Source of the DNA: Cupriavidus consociatus
GTDB taxonomy: Bacteria > Pseudomonadota > Gammaproteobacteria > Burkholderiales > Burkholderiaceae
Length of the DNA: 64,000 bases
Direction of reading: 5' to 3'
Assembly (NCBI RefSeq): GCF_017814975.1
Contig: NZ_JAGIQA010000001.1
Coordinates: 62,001 to 126,000, forward strand
The notes under the pieces were generated by a model. It searched no databases. It saw only the letters and a list, made by a program, of their open reading frames with translations, and was not told the DNA's origin. The translations under genes and the position numbers were made by a program. Positions 1,736 through 58,557 of this stretch are shown here, piece after piece (positions within the stretch are counted from its first letter, which is position 1; the number at the start of each line of letters is the position of its first letter).

Positions 1736-2983
1736 ATGTTTCAGTCGCATATTGTGGTGCTCATCGCAGGGCTTTTTGCCTTGCAGATGGCGGTGGTTTG
1801 CGTCGTATTGCGTCGATCCGCGGGCATGGGCCGCAGTGGCCTGACGTCGTGGGCGCTGGGCAATGTCGCCGCGGCAATCGCCTCGGTGCTGGCTGCGGTG
1901 CAGGACGCGCGCCCCGCGTGGCTGGTGCCGGACGCAACCGATCTCGCGTTGCTGGCTGCGCTCGCCTTGATGGCGATCGGTGCCCGTCATTTTGCCGGCC
2001 GCTCCGGCAAGAGCGGCTTGCTGCTGGGGACCTGCCTGGCTGGCGCGGTCGGCGTGGCATGGCAGGTCGTGGCACCCGGCATTCCCGAGGCGCCGCTGGC
2101 AGGGCTGCAGATGGCGCCGCTGCTGACGGCATGCCATATCGGCTTGCTGCTCGATGTGGCCCGCAGCATCAGCCCATCGGCGCGCACCTCCCGCGGCATC
2201 GGGCGCCTGGCCGCCGCTTCGCTGGTGCTGATCGCCGTTGCCGTGGCCGCGACCAACGCCTGGACCATGGCCTTGCCGGTTGCCGCGCTGGTGCAGGACG
2301 GGGCCTGGCCGCGGCCATTGCCCTGGGACGGCGAACTGGCCATGCTCAACGTCTTCACGCTGGTCGGTCTCTCTGTCAGCTTTGCGTTGATGGCGCACGA
2401 CCGGCTCCGGCGCATGCTGGAGCGGCGCGCGCGGCATGACGACCTGACCGACGTGCTGTTGCGCAGCGCCTTCTGGGAAGCGCTCGAACAAGCCTGCCTG
2501 CAGGCCGAGCGCCAGCGCAAGACGTTGACCGTGGCCTTTGTGGACCTGGACCACTTCAAGGCGATCAACGATGTCTATGGCCACCTGGCGGGCGACAGCG
2601 TGCTGCGGCACTTCGCCGGGCTGCTGCGGCGTACCAGCGGCCCGCACGACGTACTCGGACGACTGGGCGGCGAAGAATTTGCCATCGTCATGCCCGATAC
2701 CGGGATGGAAAATGGCCGGCTGGCCTGCATGCGGCTGGCGACCGCCGTGCGCGCGAGCCCTTGTCCTTCCGAGCCCGATGCAATTGCCTACACGGTAAGC
2801 ATCGGTCTGGCCACGCGCAACCCCGGGGAGGGCGCCGACGCGCTGATGCGCCGCGCCGACCGCGCCCTGTATGACGCCAAGCTCAAAGGCCGCAACGGTG
2901 TATCGATGAACCCGGTTGCCGGCAATCATGCGCCGGCGGCCGGCCGCTACGTCACCCGCGAGAACGAGCGCCTGGCATCCTGA
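1736..2983 (+). CDS. Membrane diguanylate cyclase (GGDEF domain)
   Basis: The protein makes cyclic di-GMP from two GTP. Its 415 residues comprise an N-terminal block of about six hydrophobic segments (residues 1-225), a short charged linker (HDRLRRMLERRARHDDLTD) and a C-terminal GGDEF domain. The domain shows DLDHFKAIND for metal and GTP binding and an intact active loop GGEEF at 311-315, so it should be active. The inhibitory I-site RxxD expected just before the loop is absent (GPHD), implying no classical product inhibition. There is no EAL domain. ATG 1736 is chosen because GGGA lies six bases upstream; ATG 1730 and TTG 1712 are less well placed. The membrane part is an unclassified sensor. 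Confidence 0.88.
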   Translation: MFQSHIVVLIAGLFALQMAVVCVVLRRSAGMGRSGLTSWALGNVAAAIASVLAAVQDARPAWLVPDATDLALLAALALMAIGARHFAGRSGKSGLLLGTCLAGAVGVAWQVVAPGIPEAPLAGLQMAPLLTACHIGLLLDVARSISPSARTSRGIGRLAAASLVLIAVAVAATNAWTMALPVAALVQDGAWPRPLPWDGELAMLNVFTLVGLSVSFALMAHDRLRRMLERRARHDDLTDVLLRSAFWEALEQACLQAERQRKTLTVAFVDLDHFKAINDVYGHLAGDSVLRHFAGLLRRTSGPHDVLGRLGGEEFAIVMPDTGMENGRLACMRLATAVRASPCPSEPDAIAYTVSIGLATRNPGEGADALMRRADRALYDAKLKGRNGVSMNPVAGNHAPAAGRYVTRENERLAS

Positions 2984-3034
2984 ACGCCGCCGATCCGCAC
3001 TGCGGGCCGGCGCTGCGGTAGAATGCACGCCTTT

Positions 3035-3111
3035 GCGTCCTTAGCTCAGTTGGATAGAGCACTCGCCTTCTAAGCGAGCGGTCAGAGGTTCGAGTCCTCT
3101 AGGACGCGCCA
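3035..3111 (+). tRNA. tRNA-Arg (anticodon TCT)
   Basis: The 77-nt cloverleaf has acceptor GCGTCCT/AGGACGC, an anticodon arm CTCGCCTTCTAAGCGAG giving anticodon TCT, a T-arm GAGGTTCGAGTCCTC and an encoded CCA at 3109-3111. A TAGAAT -10-like box lies at 3019-3024. The 3' half overlaps the end of a small minus-strand ORF, an arrangement often seen where an element has integrated into a tRNA gene. Confidence 0.96.
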
Positions 3112-52120: not shown

Positions 52121-52150
52121 CTCCCCTCTCCCATTTATGGGAGAGGGGAG
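52121..52150. repeat. 13-bp perfect inverted repeat (intergenic hairpin)
   Basis: CTCCCCTCTCCCA-TTTA-TGGGAGAGGGGAG lies 43 bp after the Bug gene. No T-run follows on either strand, so it is not a typical intrinsic terminator. The sequence style resembles REP-like intergenic hairpins that recur in Burkholderiales genomes; only one copy is seen in this window. Confidence 0.7.
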
Positions 52151-53466: not shown

Positions 53467-54279
53467 ATGAGTATTCCCGCACTTTCCCTCGACAAGGTCA
53501 CCTGCACCTTTGTCTCGCGCGATGACCGCAGCCAGCGCTATACCGCGGTCAAGGACGTCACGCTGTCGATCCAGCCGGGCGAGTTCGTCTCGGTGGTCGG
53601 CCCCACTGGCTGCGGCAAGTCGACGCTGCTGAACGTCGGCGCCGGCCTGCTGGAGCCTTCCAGCGGCGAGATACGGGTGTTCGGCGAGCCGCTGCGCGGC
53701 ATCAACCGGCGCGCTGGCTACATGTTCCAGACCGAGGCGCTGATGCCGTGGCGCAGCGCGCTCGACAACGTCGTCGCCGGGCTCGAGTTCCGCGGCGTGG
53801 CGCGCGCCGAGGCCGTGCGGCAGGGCGAGGACTGGCTGCGCCGTGTGGGCCTGGGCGGCTTCGGCGACCGTTATCCGCATCAGCTTTCCGGGGGCATGCG
53901 CAAGCGCGTGGCGCTGGCGCAGACGCTGGTGCTGGACCCGGACATCATCCTGATGGACGAACCGTTCTCGGCGCTCGATATCCAGACGCGGCAGCTGATG
54001 GAGAACGAGGTGCTGGACCTGTGGGCCGCCAGGCGCAAGGCCGTGCTGTTCATCACGCACGACCTCGACGAGGCCATCGCCATGAGCGACCGCGTGGTGG
54101 TGTTGTCGGCAGGCCCGGCCACGCATCCCATCGGCGAGTTCGCCATCGACCTGCCGCGGCCGCGCGACGTGGCCGAGATCCGCAACCATCCGCGCTTCGT
54201 CCAACTGCACGCCGCGATCTGGGACGTGCTGCGCGAGGAAGTGCTCAAGGGCTATGCGCAGCAGCGCAAGGTGGCCTGA
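53467..54279 (+). CDS. ABC transporter ATPase (SsuB/TauB-like)
   Basis: The 270-residue ATPase has Walker A GPTGCGKST (about 45-53), Q-loop FQTEALMPW, signature LSGGMRKRVALAQ, Walker B IILMDEPFSALD and switch FITHDLDEA. The LMPWRSALDNV segment is typical of nitrate/sulfonate-type importers. ATG 53467 is used; the frame stays open upstream but without sequence similarity. It has no strong ribosome site and follows the hairpin by 65 bp. Confidence 0.9.
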   Translation: MSIPALSLDKVTCTFVSRDDRSQRYTAVKDVTLSIQPGEFVSVVGPTGCGKSTLLNVGAGLLEPSSGEIRVFGEPLRGINRRAGYMFQTEALMPWRSALDNVVAGLEFRGVARAEAVRQGEDWLRRVGLGGFGDRYPHQLSGGMRKRVALAQTLVLDPDIILMDEPFSALDIQTRQLMENEVLDLWAARRKAVLFITHDLDEAIAMSDRVVVLSAGPATHPIGEFAIDLPRPRDVAEIRNHPRFVQLHAAIWDVLREEVLKGYAQQRKVA

Positions 54280-54320
54280 GCCCGCCCATTGCAACGTCAT
54301 CACAACGACAACCAATCCCG

Positions 54321-55112
54321 ATGGCATTCCGTAACGACTCCAAAGGTATGCTGCGCGTCTGGCAGCTGCTGGTGCTGGTGGTGATCCTGGGCGTCTGGCA
54401 CATCGCCACGCGCTCGCAGCAGGTTGCCTTCTTCTTCGGCGAACCGCTGATGGTCGCGCAGCGGATCTGGAACTGGTTCTTCATCGAGCGCGATATCTAC
54501 CTGCACCTGGGCGTGACGCTGCTCGAGACTGTGCTGGCCTTCGGCATCGGCACGCTGGCGGGCCTCGGCGTGGGCTTGTGGCTGGCGCTGAGCCCGATGA
54601 CGTCGGCAATCCTGGATCCCTACGTCAAGGCGATGAACTCGATGCCGCGCGTGATTCTGGCGCCGATCTTCGCGGTGTGGTTCGGCCTGGGGATCTGGTC
54701 GAAGGTGGCGCTGGCGGTGACGCTGGTGTTCTTTATCGTCTTCTTCAATGTCTACCAGGGCGTCAAGGAAGTGAGCCCGGTGGTGCTCGCCAACGCGCGC
54801 ATGCTGGGCGCCAACCAGCATCAGCTGCTGCGCCATGTGTACCTGCCGAGCGCGACCAGCTGGGTGTTTTCGTCGCTGCACACCTCGGTGGGACTGGCCT
54901 TTGTCGGTGCGGTGGTGGGCGAGTACCTGGGCTCGGCGCGCGGCGTGGGCTACCTGATCCTGCAGGCCGAGGGCACCTTCGACATCAACACGGTGTTCGC
55001 CGGCATCGTGGTGCTGACGGCGTTTGCGCTGATGCTGGACTGGATGGTCGGCATCGGCGAGAAGCGGCTGATGAAGTGGCAGCCGAGGAGCGGGGAGACG
55101 GAGAAGCTGTAA
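54321..55112 (+). CDS. ABC transporter permease (SsuC/TauC-like)
   Basis: The 263-residue permease has six predicted helices and a coupling loop LANARMLGANQHQLLRHVYLP, the partner of the ATPase encoded 41 bp upstream. N-terminal helix VWQLLVLVVILGVWHIAT. The C-terminus (IGEKRLMKWQPRSGETEKL) is complete and normal. Its last 128 bp overlap, tail to tail, the histidine kinase gene on the opposite strand. Confidence 0.9.
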   Translation: MAFRNDSKGMLRVWQLLVLVVILGVWHIATRSQQVAFFFGEPLMVAQRIWNWFFIERDIYLHLGVTLLETVLAFGIGTLAGLGVGLWLALSPMTSAILDPYVKAMNSMPRVILAPIFAVWFGLGIWSKVALAVTLVFFIVFFNVYQGVKEVSPVVLANARMLGANQHQLLRHVYLPSATSWVFSSLHTSVGLAFVGAVVGEYLGSARGVGYLILQAEGTFDINTVFAGIVVLTAFALMLDWMVGIGEKRLMKWQPRSGETEKL

Positions 55113-56553
55113 GCGGGCCGGCCTCGCCCTCGTCCTCGTTTTGGTCCTCGTTTTGGTCCTCCGCCACGCCGAAGCAGACCGAGGCGGTCAGCCCGCCACC
55201 TGGCGTCTCTGACAGCGCCACGCTGGCGCCGTGCAGCCGGGCGATTTCGCGCACGATCGGCAGGCCCAGTCCGGTGCCTTCCGCGGACTGTCCGCTCTCG
55301 CCGCGATAAAAGCGGCGGAACACCGCATCCCGCTCGGCAGTCGCAATGCCTGGACCGTTGTCCACCACCTGCAGCACCGGCGCGCCGGCCGTCAGTGCAA
55401 CGCGCACCGTGACCACCGCGCCACGGCCCGCATAGCGGATCGCATTGTCGATCAGGTTGCCGGTCAGCTCCTGCAGCAGCTCGGCCTGTCCGTCGAGCTG
55501 CACCGGTCCGTTCTGCTCGAATCCCAGGTCGACCTCGCCGCCGCGCGCCACCGGTGCCCACTCCAGCGCTACGGCCTGGGCCAATGTATCGAGCCGCACC
55601 GGCCGCAGCGCCGGCGCGTAGCCCGCGTCCGGCTCCAGCCGCGATAGGGACAACAGCTGCTGCACGCCCTTGGACGCATGCCGCACGGTGCCGTGCAGCA
55701 GCCGCATGTGCTCGCGCACGCGTTCGCCATCGCGTTCGCGCAATGCCAGTTCAGATTGCGCCTGGATGATCGCCAGCGGTGTCTTGAGCTGGTGCGCGGC
55801 ATCGGCAAAGAAGCGCTTGCGCGCCTGTACCATGCGGTATAGCCGCGCCATGTACTGGTTGAGCGCCTGCACCAGCGGCTTCATCTCGGCAGGCAGGTCC
55901 TTCTGCTCGATCGGATCGAGCTGCGTGCCGCGGCGGGCGACCGCGTCGGAGAGCTGGTGCAGCGGCCGCAGCCCGCGCCGCACGCCGAACCAGACGATGG
56001 CCAGCGCCAGCGTCACCAGCATCAGCTCCTGCAGCAGCGAGCCGATCAGGATGTCGCGCGCCAGCAGCTGGCGCGGCTCGATGGTTTCGCCGACCAGCAC
56101 CCACACCAGCCGCGTGCGTGCCGTGCTGATGTCGTGGACCGGCAGGGGCTGCGCCGCCATGCGCAGCGGCTGTTCGCGGAACACGGTGTCGTAGAACACG
56201 GTGCGGTAGAGCTGCAGCGGTGCCCTGGCGGGCATCGGCAGGTCCTCGTAGCCGGTCACGGTGGCGCCGTCTTCGTCGCGGACGCGGTAGTAGATGTGCG
56301 GGCCGGCCTGGTCGTCGAACAGTTCCAGCGCGAGGTTGGGCAGGTCCACGTCGAGCCGCCCCTCGCGCAGACGGATGCCTTCGCGCATGGCGCGCAGCGA
56401 GGCTTCCAGCGTGCGGTCGAAGGCGGTATGCGCGGCCGACATGGCGCGCTGGTACGTCAGCCACGCATCGAAGGCGAGCAGGCCCATCAGCGGCACCAGC
56501 AGCCACAGCGACAGCTGCAGCCGCAGGCTGGGCGGCTGGCGCAGGATCTTCAT
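54985..56553 (-). CDS. TctE-like sensor histidine kinase with antisense-encoded tail
   Basis: This 522-residue inner-membrane kinase has TM1 (LSLWLLVPLMGLLAFDAW), a periplasmic 2CSK-type sensor (about 35-165), TM2 (about 170-192), HAMP-like linker, HisKA with His254 in DAAHQLKTPLA, and a HATPase domain with NLIDNAIRYA, DNGPGI and GTGLGLPIV. The kinase fold ends near residue 463. The last 55-60 residues (EDQNEDQNEDEGE, then Ser/Ala/Arg-rich) are extra, and residues from about 481 are read antisense through the permease gene. This suggests loss of the original stop. It phosphorylates the regulator encoded 20 bp upstream. Confidence 0.87.
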   Translation of the reverse strand: MKILRQPPSLRLQLSLWLLVPLMGLLAFDAWLTYQRAMSAAHTAFDRTLEASLRAMREGIRLREGRLDVDLPNLALELFDDQAGPHIYYRVRDEDGATVTGYEDLPMPARAPLQLYRTVFYDTVFREQPLRMAAQPLPVHDISTARTRLVWVLVGETIEPRQLLARDILIGSLLQELMLVTLALAIVWFGVRRGLRPLHQLSDAVARRGTQLDPIEQKDLPAEMKPLVQALNQYMARLYRMVQARKRFFADAAHQLKTPLAIIQAQSELALRERDGERVREHMRLLHGTVRHASKGVQQLLSLSRLEPDAGYAPALRPVRLDTLAQAVALEWAPVARGGEVDLGFEQNGPVQLDGQAELLQELTGNLIDNAIRYAGRGAVVTVRVALTAGAPVLQVVDNGPGIATAERDAVFRRFYRGESGQSAEGTGLGLPIVREIARLHGASVALSETPGGGLTASVCFGVAEDQNEDQNEDEGEAGPLTASPSPRSSAATSSAASRRCRPSSPASAQTPSAPRCRRTPC

Positions 56554-56573
56554 CGTGGCGGATCCCGGGCCGA

Positions 56574-57251
56574 TCAGGCCGACGTCGGCCGCGACTCGAG
56601 CAGGTAGCCAAGTCCGCGCAGCGTGATGATGGCCACGCCGCTGCCGTCGAGCTTCTTGCGCAGCCGGTGCACGTAGATCTCGATCGCGTCCGGGTTCACC
56701 GATTCGTCGATGCCATAGATCTTCTCCGACAGCGCCGCCTTGTTGACCGCGCGACCGTCGCGCAGCATCAGCACTTCCAGCACGGCGCGCTCGCGCCCGG
56801 TCAGGGCCAGCAGTTCGCCGTGCAGCGTGAAGGCGCGGCTGATGCTGTCGTAGTGGAGCGGGCCGAACGCCAGCTGCGTGCTGTCATGCCCGTGGCTGCG
56901 GCGGATCAGCGCACGGGCGCGCGCCTCCAGTTCGGACAGGTCGAACGGCTTGGCCAGGTAGTCGTCGGCGCCAAGGTCGAGGCCGCGCACGCGGTCCTCC
57001 ACCGAGCCATGCGCGGTCAGGATCAGCACCGGCAGCGGGTTGCGGCGCTGGCGCAGGCGGCGCAGCACCTCCAGCCCGTCGAGTCCGGGCAGGCCGAGGT
57101 CCAGGATCAGCAGGGCGTAGTCCTGGGTGCACAGCAGGCTGTCCGCGCTGCGGCCGTCGTGCATGCAGTCGACCGTGAAGCCGGCCTGGCCCAGAGCCTG
57201 GTTCAGCGAGTTGGCCAGCATCACATTGTCTTCGGCAAGCAGGATACGCAT
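56574..57251 (-). CDS. TctD/OmpR-like response regulator
   Basis: The 225-residue regulator has a receiver domain with phospho-acceptor Asp51 (LILDLGLPGLDG), acidic pocket AEDN and the conserved Lys in YLAKPFDL, then a winged-helix DNA-binding domain (about 125-222; IEIYVHRLRKKLDGSG). In its family it regulates uptake of tricarboxylates and an associated porin. Here the porin gene is divergent, 247 bp away, and is a likely target. ATG 57251 matches the family N-terminus MRILLAEDN. Confidence 0.9.
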   Translation of the reverse strand: MRILLAEDNVMLANSLNQALGQAGFTVDCMHDGRSADSLLCTQDYALLILDLGLPGLDGLEVLRRLRQRRNPLPVLILTAHGSVEDRVRGLDLGADDYLAKPFDLSELEARARALIRRSHGHDSTQLAFGPLHYDSISRAFTLHGELLALTGRERAVLEVLMLRDGRAVNKAALSEKIYGIDESVNPDAIEIYVHRLRKKLDGSGVAIITLRGLGYLLESRPTSA

Positions 57252-57498
57252 GGAACGGGTGGAACTGGAATAGGGCGAAGAGATTGGCAAGACGGCACGG
57301 CTATCCGGCCGGATGGCCAAGGCCAGACTGATACATCGATCCGCTGCGCCTTAGAAGCTAGGGAAACCCCCAACCCCGGCCGAGGCCGGCACGCGCGAAT
57401 CGCCCCGACTCCGAAAGCGAACTGAAAGTGCGCGTCGCCTACCATCCGCCCCGTTCCAGCATCAAGACCACAACAAGCACTCAAACGAAGGAGACAGC

Positions 57499-58557
57499 AT
57501 GAAGCGTACGGCCATGGCAATCGCGACGATGGGACTGGCTGCAGCCGGGTCGGCATCCGCCCAGTCGAGCGTGACCCTGTACGGGCTGGTGGACGCCGGC
57601 ATCGAATACGTCAGCCATGCCGGCCCGGACGGGTCGGCGGTGAAGCTGACCTCGGGCGGCAAGAACACGTCGCGCTGGGGTATCCGCGGCAGCGAAGACC
57701 TGGGCGGCGGGCTCAAGGCCATCTTCAACCTGGAAAGCGGCATCGCCATCGATACCGGCCGGCTGGATAGCGACAACACGCTGTTCGACCGCCGCGCCAC
57801 CGTGGGGCTGTCGAGCCGGTATGGCCAGGTGGTGCTGGGCCGCACCTTCACCACCACCTACGACTTCATGCTGCCGTTCGACCCGATGGGCTATGCGCCG
57901 GCCTATTCGTGGGCCACGTCGTCGACCGCCACCGGCGGCCGCAAGGACGGCCTGTTCTCGCGCGCGTCCAATGCGATCCGCTATGACGGCAGCTTCGGCG
58001 GCCTGAAGCTGGGCGCGACCGTCGCGCTGGGCGAAGTGGCGGGCGATTTCAAGAGTTCGTCAAAGTACGCGCTCGGCGTCGGCTACAACGCCGGCAAGTT
58101 CGCCGCGGCGGCGACATGGGACCGCCAGAACGGTGCCGGCACCAGCACCACGCCGGCCGACAGCACCGACTACATCCAGGGCATCCACGCCGGCGCCAGC
58201 TATGCCTTCGGCGACCTCAAGCTGTTCGCCGGCTACCGCAACTACAAGCGTACCTTTACCACCGGCGCGCCGGACGACCGCAGCGACATGTACTGGGGCG
58301 GCGCGAGCTACGACTTCACGCCGGCGTTCACGCTGTACGGCGCGGTCTACAAGCAGAACATCAAGGGCGGCAACAATGCCGACCCGATCCTGTTCTCGCT
58401 GCGCGGCCAGTACGCACTGTCCAAGCGCACGCTGGCCTACCTGTCGGTCGGCTATGCGGAGGCCCGCAATGGGCAGAACGTCAGCGTGTCGCGCGACCTG
58501 GTCGGCTATGCCAGCAACCAGACCGGCGTGATGGCTGGCCTGCAGCACCGCTTCTGA
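57499..58557 (+). CDS. Outer-membrane porin (Burkholderiales trimeric type)
   Basis: The 352-residue porin has signal peptide MKRTAMAIATMGLAAAGSAS cleaved before QSSVTLYGLVDAGIEY, the standard start of Porin_4 proteins. The SRWGIRGSEDLGGGLKAIF and RRATVGLS...GQVVLGR motifs and alternating beta-strand pattern follow. The C-terminal Phe (GLQHRF) is the outer-membrane insertion signal. It lies divergent from the two-component pair, so substrate-specific induction is likely. GAAGGAG-type site upstream of the ATG. A clear terminator follows. Confidence 0.93.
   Translation: MKRTAMAIATMGLAAAGSASAQSSVTLYGLVDAGIEYVSHAGPDGSAVKLTSGGKNTSRWGIRGSEDLGGGLKAIFNLESGIAIDTGRLDSDNTLFDRRATVGLSSRYGQVVLGRTFTTTYDFMLPFDPMGYAPAYSWATSSTATGGRKDGLFSRASNAIRYDGSFGGLKLGATVALGEVAGDFKSSSKYALGVGYNAGKFAAAATWDRQNGAGTSTTPADSTDYIQGIHAGASYAFGDLKLFAGYRNYKRTFTTGAPDDRSDMYWGGASYDFTPAFTLYGAVYKQNIKGGNNADPILFSLRGQYALSKRTLAYLSVGYAEARNGQNVSVSRDLVGYASNQTGVMAGLQHRF

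Follow-up and report, generated by a model that had tools for sequence, protein, structure and literature searches.

The sensor histidine kinase gene in the window, the stretch of 64,000 nucleotides from Cupriavidus consociatus analyzed here, reads on into the 3′ end of a neighboring ABC transporter permease gene, and this overlap looks like the result of an ordinary stop-codon loss, a tolerated accident. Our explanation, which we hold to be very probable as a whole, is that the kinase lost its stop, that reading ran on to a TGA set by the permease, and that the tail so gained is a tolerated by-product. The original stop would have been lost in the lineage of the window species and Cupriavidus sp. 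amp6, with deletion or replacement of a short stretch behind the kinase as the likeliest cause. Translation would then have continued, in the resulting phase, until a first stop came up in the antisense of the permease codons; in the phase of the window, this landing stop would be the TGA that faces Ile-Asn codons 128 bp into the overlap. Everything beyond residue 461, 61 residues in all, would be a by-product made up of a variable acidic linker and an antisense reading of the permease, tolerated because it is positioned after a complete kinase domain. The features on which this reading draws are collected in Table 1.

Table 1. Features of the kinase/permease junction, in window positions unless given as kinase residues.
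Feature	Location	Strand	Remarks
ABC transporter permease (BPD_transp_1)	54321..55112	+	263 aa
TctE/QseC-like sensor histidine kinase gene	54985..56553	-	ORF, 522 aa; Pfam/NCBIfam matches
Kinase domain 2CSK_N	residues 23-168		above Pfam cut-off
Kinase domain HAMP	residues 191-238		23.8 bits vs cut-off of 25, just under
Kinase domain HisKA	residues 244-307		above Pfam cut-off
Kinase domain HATPase_c	residues 356-461		above Pfam cut-off; last Pfam domain
Response-regulator-like gene	56574..57251	-	directly upstream of kinase; named by eye (sequence, position)
Convergent overlap kinase/permease	54985..55112	.	128 bp, tail to tail
Kinase stop TGA	54985..54987	-	opposite permease codons 222-223 (Ile-Asn)
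Kinase codon TCG	55084..55086	-	TAG in amp6
Acidic linker GVAEDQNEDQNEDEGEAG	55117..55170	-	kinase residues 462-479, between ATPase domain and permease
Perfect 12-bp tandem repeat	55132..55161	.	2.5 copies, in kinase frame; Tandem Repeats Finder

The kinase carries 2CSK_N, HisKA, and HATPase_c in that order (Pfam), as expected of a 2CSK_N sensor histidine kinase, and the last of these domains ends close to residue 463, where an earlier note on this DNA had placed the end of the fold. TctE is a name that we assume for this protein. Its best NCBIfam match is QseC (NF007664 equivalog), at 209.8 bits versus a curated cut-off of 475; with a score so far under the cut-off, the kinase can be called QseC-like only and not a true QseC. 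The permease gives weak matches to the SaoP, TauC, and SsuC models, each below its cut-off. The body of the extended kinase is still constrained, with a dN/dS of ≈0.2 in four pairs drawn from four loci (0.222 for the window, L001, against amp6, L004; 0.239 for L001–L005; 0.194 for L004–L005; and 0.223 for L001–L006), every pair including C-terminal additions and none being free of them.

The two genes lie on opposite strands and share bases at their 3′ ends, so that the kinase does run 128 bp antisense through the end of the permease, as had been noted earlier. Read from the coordinates, the codon positions of kinase and permease pair 1:1, 2:3, and 3:2, which is the phase (123:132). This overlap is the longest among 75 convergent pairs in 740 kb of the genome, as called with a simple gene caller of our own that considered overlaps of up to 200 bp. 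Just five of these pairs overlap at all and two by at least 60 bp, the second-longest overlap (118 bp) including a weakly scored, doubtful ORF. Within the same 740 kb, the antisense frame in the phase of the window is open for at least 128 bp from the 3′ end in 39% of 460 genes, and the other two phases are open in 44% and 89%. The event is uncommon; its length, given the loss of a stop, is unremarkable. A search of a plasmid collection matched three records, covering 3%, 1%, and 1% of the query.

Among 60 genomes of the genus, 36 hold a close ortholog of the kinase; for each of the remaining 24, the top match listed is a distant paralog (E 2.8e-90 or weaker). The convergent permease is present in 22 of the 30 loci read and absent from the stretch examined in eight (L024–L029, L031, and L032). 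It is the direct neighbor of the kinase in 18; in L017, L020, L021, and L030, 892–1314 bp separate the two genes, and the L017 interval holds an ORF that we take to resemble old yellow enzymes. Six further orthologs comprise L059–L063, with no permease in the stretch examined (just 203 bases behind the kinase for L063), and L064, a 19th adjacent locus with a frame-broken kinase that is excluded from the counts. At 15 of the 18 adjacent loci, the kinase ends before its neighbor, leaving gaps of 7–187 bp (L009, with its broken kinase frame, is counted here). Overlaps occur at three: the window, amp6 (29 bp), and L019 (163 bp). The earlier proposal that an original stop was lost, creating a new C-terminus and a tail-to-tail overlap, is upheld by these relatives, among which the C-terminus is lineage-specific. 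The protein alignment covers 19 of 24 loci, omitting L038 (broken frame) and the distant L052, L054, L055, and L056; the second set of trees covers 13 of the 30 loci.

Two of these loci have damaged kinases of their own. In Cupriavidus necator A5-1 (L009/L038), the frame is shifted near residue 438 and the end of the ATPase domain is lost; homology goes on in another frame, ending FGAAEEETEQLAAA. The L064 ortholog (positions 1789-3091, from a genome that is 86% complete) has two frame changes, at residues ~109-114 and ~448-454, and its last frame stops just short of the permease.

How the stop was lost can be narrowed down at the junction itself. The two exact 12-bp units at 55135-55158 described earlier are a rotation of the unit in the array of Table 1. 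Perfect period-12 runs as long as this one are rare and not unique, with four in the 740 kb sampled and none in 5 × 740 kb of Markov-1 random sequence. A repeat expansion, one of two causes put forward in the earlier note, did not remove the stop, because the units are in frame and deleting one or both of them in silico leaves the overlap at 128 bp. As for the other cause, a point change, TCG versus TAG does separate the kinase ends of the window and amp6, but amp6 too has no stop ahead of the permease. The distance between codon 461 and the end of the permease is 61 nt in the window and 46 nt in amp6, against 74–195 nt in L005–L013. A short junction by itself does not explain the loss, however, as L014, L015, L016, and L018 are shorter still, at 40 nt, and have no overlap.

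The window and amp6 are sisters in the kinase-plus-permease tree (96/97), a relation that the kinase tree and the tree with upstream DNA do not resolve. The kinase of the window is at a distance of 0.074 from L005 versus 0.079 from amp6, and its upstream DNA at 0.054 versus 0.071; the permease is the sole region nearer to amp6, at 0.034 versus 0.051 from L005. Because trees and distances conflict in this way, both a shared event and recombination at the junction are possible, and the kinase/permease junction may have been moved by recombination. The L019 stop loss is a separate event, since it lies in a distant clade and in another phase, (123:213), and since four near relatives (L014, L015, L016, and L018) retain a TAG before the permease. 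At the position of their TAG, the alignment shows CAG in L019, which also differs there in length by 5 bp; in the tree, L019 lies closest to L018 (93/87).

That the long kinase frame is a sequencing or assembly error is highly improbable in our judgment. The window is known from one assembly only, and in the available portion of PMC2478687, 124 of 178 published convergent overlaps longer than 60 bp are filed as 3′-end extensions, that is, misannotations, the other 54 being possibly real. Like those extensions, the overlap of the window exceeds 60 bp and gives one of the genes a longer 3′ end than the orthologs have. Unlike them, it has a counterpart in a second, separate genome, amp6, which likewise has no stop before the neighboring gene, and this speaks against a simple error. 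The earlier note had asked about an error hiding an earlier stop near 55110-55180. Simulated changes to the 58-nt linker leave that idea weak: the frame still runs into the permease after all 58 single-base deletions and after 222 of 232 single-base insertions, although seven of 174 substitutions do give an earlier stop.

If the stop was lost as we propose, the permease decides where the kinase ends, and the end points of the kinase are indeed preset by permease codons on the opposite strand. Of the 22 permease loci, 21 (all except L008) carry a TGA at 128 bp in the antisense phase of the window. The next antisense phase meets a TAG at 163 bp in all 22 loci, with L015 having an earlier TGA at 151, and the L019 kinase terminates exactly at this TAG. 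Two independent stop losses have thus come to rest at the sites 128 and 163 bp in, both at one junction and with end points dictated by conserved codons of the neighbor. The closest relative of the window, amp6 (L004/L033, with the same tail in both), ends sooner owing to permease codon 255, a Pro codon in every case, which reads CCT in amp6, CCG in the window, and CCC in L005. A synonymous third-base difference in the permease therefore decides where the kinase protein ends. This additional TAG, 29 bp in within the phase of the window, is absent from the other 21 of 22 loci, so that the end in amp6, and not that in the window, looks derived; the 128-bp site looks like the default landing point.

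The composition of the tail follows from the same pairing. In this phase, a third-position change in the permease falls on the second position of a kinase codon. Permease third positions are 91.7% G+C, and 41 of the 43 overlap codons of the kinase carry C or G as their second base (counting the TGA; the first codon straddles the edge). The tail is rich in Ser, Pro, Ala, Thr, Arg, and Cys because the second positions of its codons face these GC-rich third positions. In the last 43 permease codons, the window differs from amp6 by three synonymous and one nonsynonymous changes and from L005 by four synonymous and none nonsynonymous. These small numbers fit a permease under constraint and a freely changing tail, which is presumably translated and neutral or nearly so. 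Residues 464-522 are modeled at pLDDT <50 and without secondary structure, in a poor model built from 20 sequences (mean pLDDT 62.4, with hardly any row of the alignment covering the tail); the model lends weak support to a tail that is probably unstructured. It would be a mistake to take this unusual Ser/Pro/Arg tail for a domain.

A selected new C-terminus, with the acidic linker and the Ser/Pro/Arg tail tuning how the kinase signals or how stable it is, seems to us very unlikely. The linkers of the window and amp6 are both acidic despite differing repeat units, and in L009 FGAAE is likewise followed by an acidic stretch, although not in the current frame of its broken kinase; both observations would suit selection. 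The antisense part, however, amounts to just the eight residues TASPSPRS in amp6, followed by a stop, and to nothing in other relatives of the same phase, and its composition is already accounted for by the permease third positions. The claim of the earlier note that the tail has no family counterpart was nearly right: amp6 shares the acidic linker and TASPSPRS with the window, and beyond these residues the tail has no counterpart in the other relatives examined. Tolerated run-on stays our preferred reading.

The junction illustrates clearly how genes come to overlap convergently and how proteins gain new C-termini. Stop-codon mutation is an accepted origin of convergent overlaps in the parts of PMC2174442 available to us, which also give (123:132) as the commonest phase of convergent overlaps >4 bp (49% of 1218), chiefly below ~50 bp, with other phases gaining in longer overlaps. 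The window pair resembles those overlaps in its tail-to-tail arrangement, its phase, and its origin by stop loss; unlike typical (123:132) overlaps, it is long, and the (123:213) overlap of L019 departs from the commonest phase. Possibly real long convergent overlaps are mostly conserved in very close species only, according to the same portion of PMC2478687. Stop-codon shifts, in which 3′ noncoding DNA becomes C-terminus, were described in 13 bacterial cases (Vakhrusheva 2011, as cited in the available part of PMC4494051). The window kinase likewise takes in DNA behind the gene, although some of that DNA is the antisense strand of a coding sequence. A bolder proposal makes the permease 3′ end a recurrent donor of C-termini, with preset stops at 128 and 163 bp, silent codon switches, and some tails altering kinase output. 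If true, silent changes in permease codons would switch the end of the neighboring protein and in some cases its activity, a prospect to which we give very little credence beyond the landing sites and stop losses themselves.

Equally far from our preferred reading is a regulatory overlap, in which the convergent transcripts would interfere in an excludon-like manner; we rate its chances as slight indeed. According to the available text of PMC7154746, convergent transcripts that overlap can exert mutual regulation, and one of the schemes has convergent genes that lack a terminator. Consistent with this, all three terminator-like sites in 54200-57600 lie within genes and none falls between 54985 and 55170. 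Strong palindromes separate the genes in L005, L006, L008, L009, and L010, that is, an exact CTCTCCC...GGGAGAG palindrome in five of the nine junctions of L005–L013, and are absent from the window and amp6 junctions. Transcript overlap hinges on termination and not on coding overlap, however, and the coding overlap occurs in just three of 18 adjacent loci.

Palindromes of this kind occur elsewhere in the genome. An intergenic CTCTCCC-N6-GGGAGAG lies at 52126-52145 of the window and is one of 152 copies genome-wide, with none of the reversed control pattern. In the 740 kb sampled, several copies are paired 92-124 bp apart, and the spacers are often GCNNGC or ATNNAT. The family looks like a REP-type repeat. 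A perfect 6-bp tandem repeat, GCGATG in 13.5 copies, lies at G000 contig C193:135862-135942.
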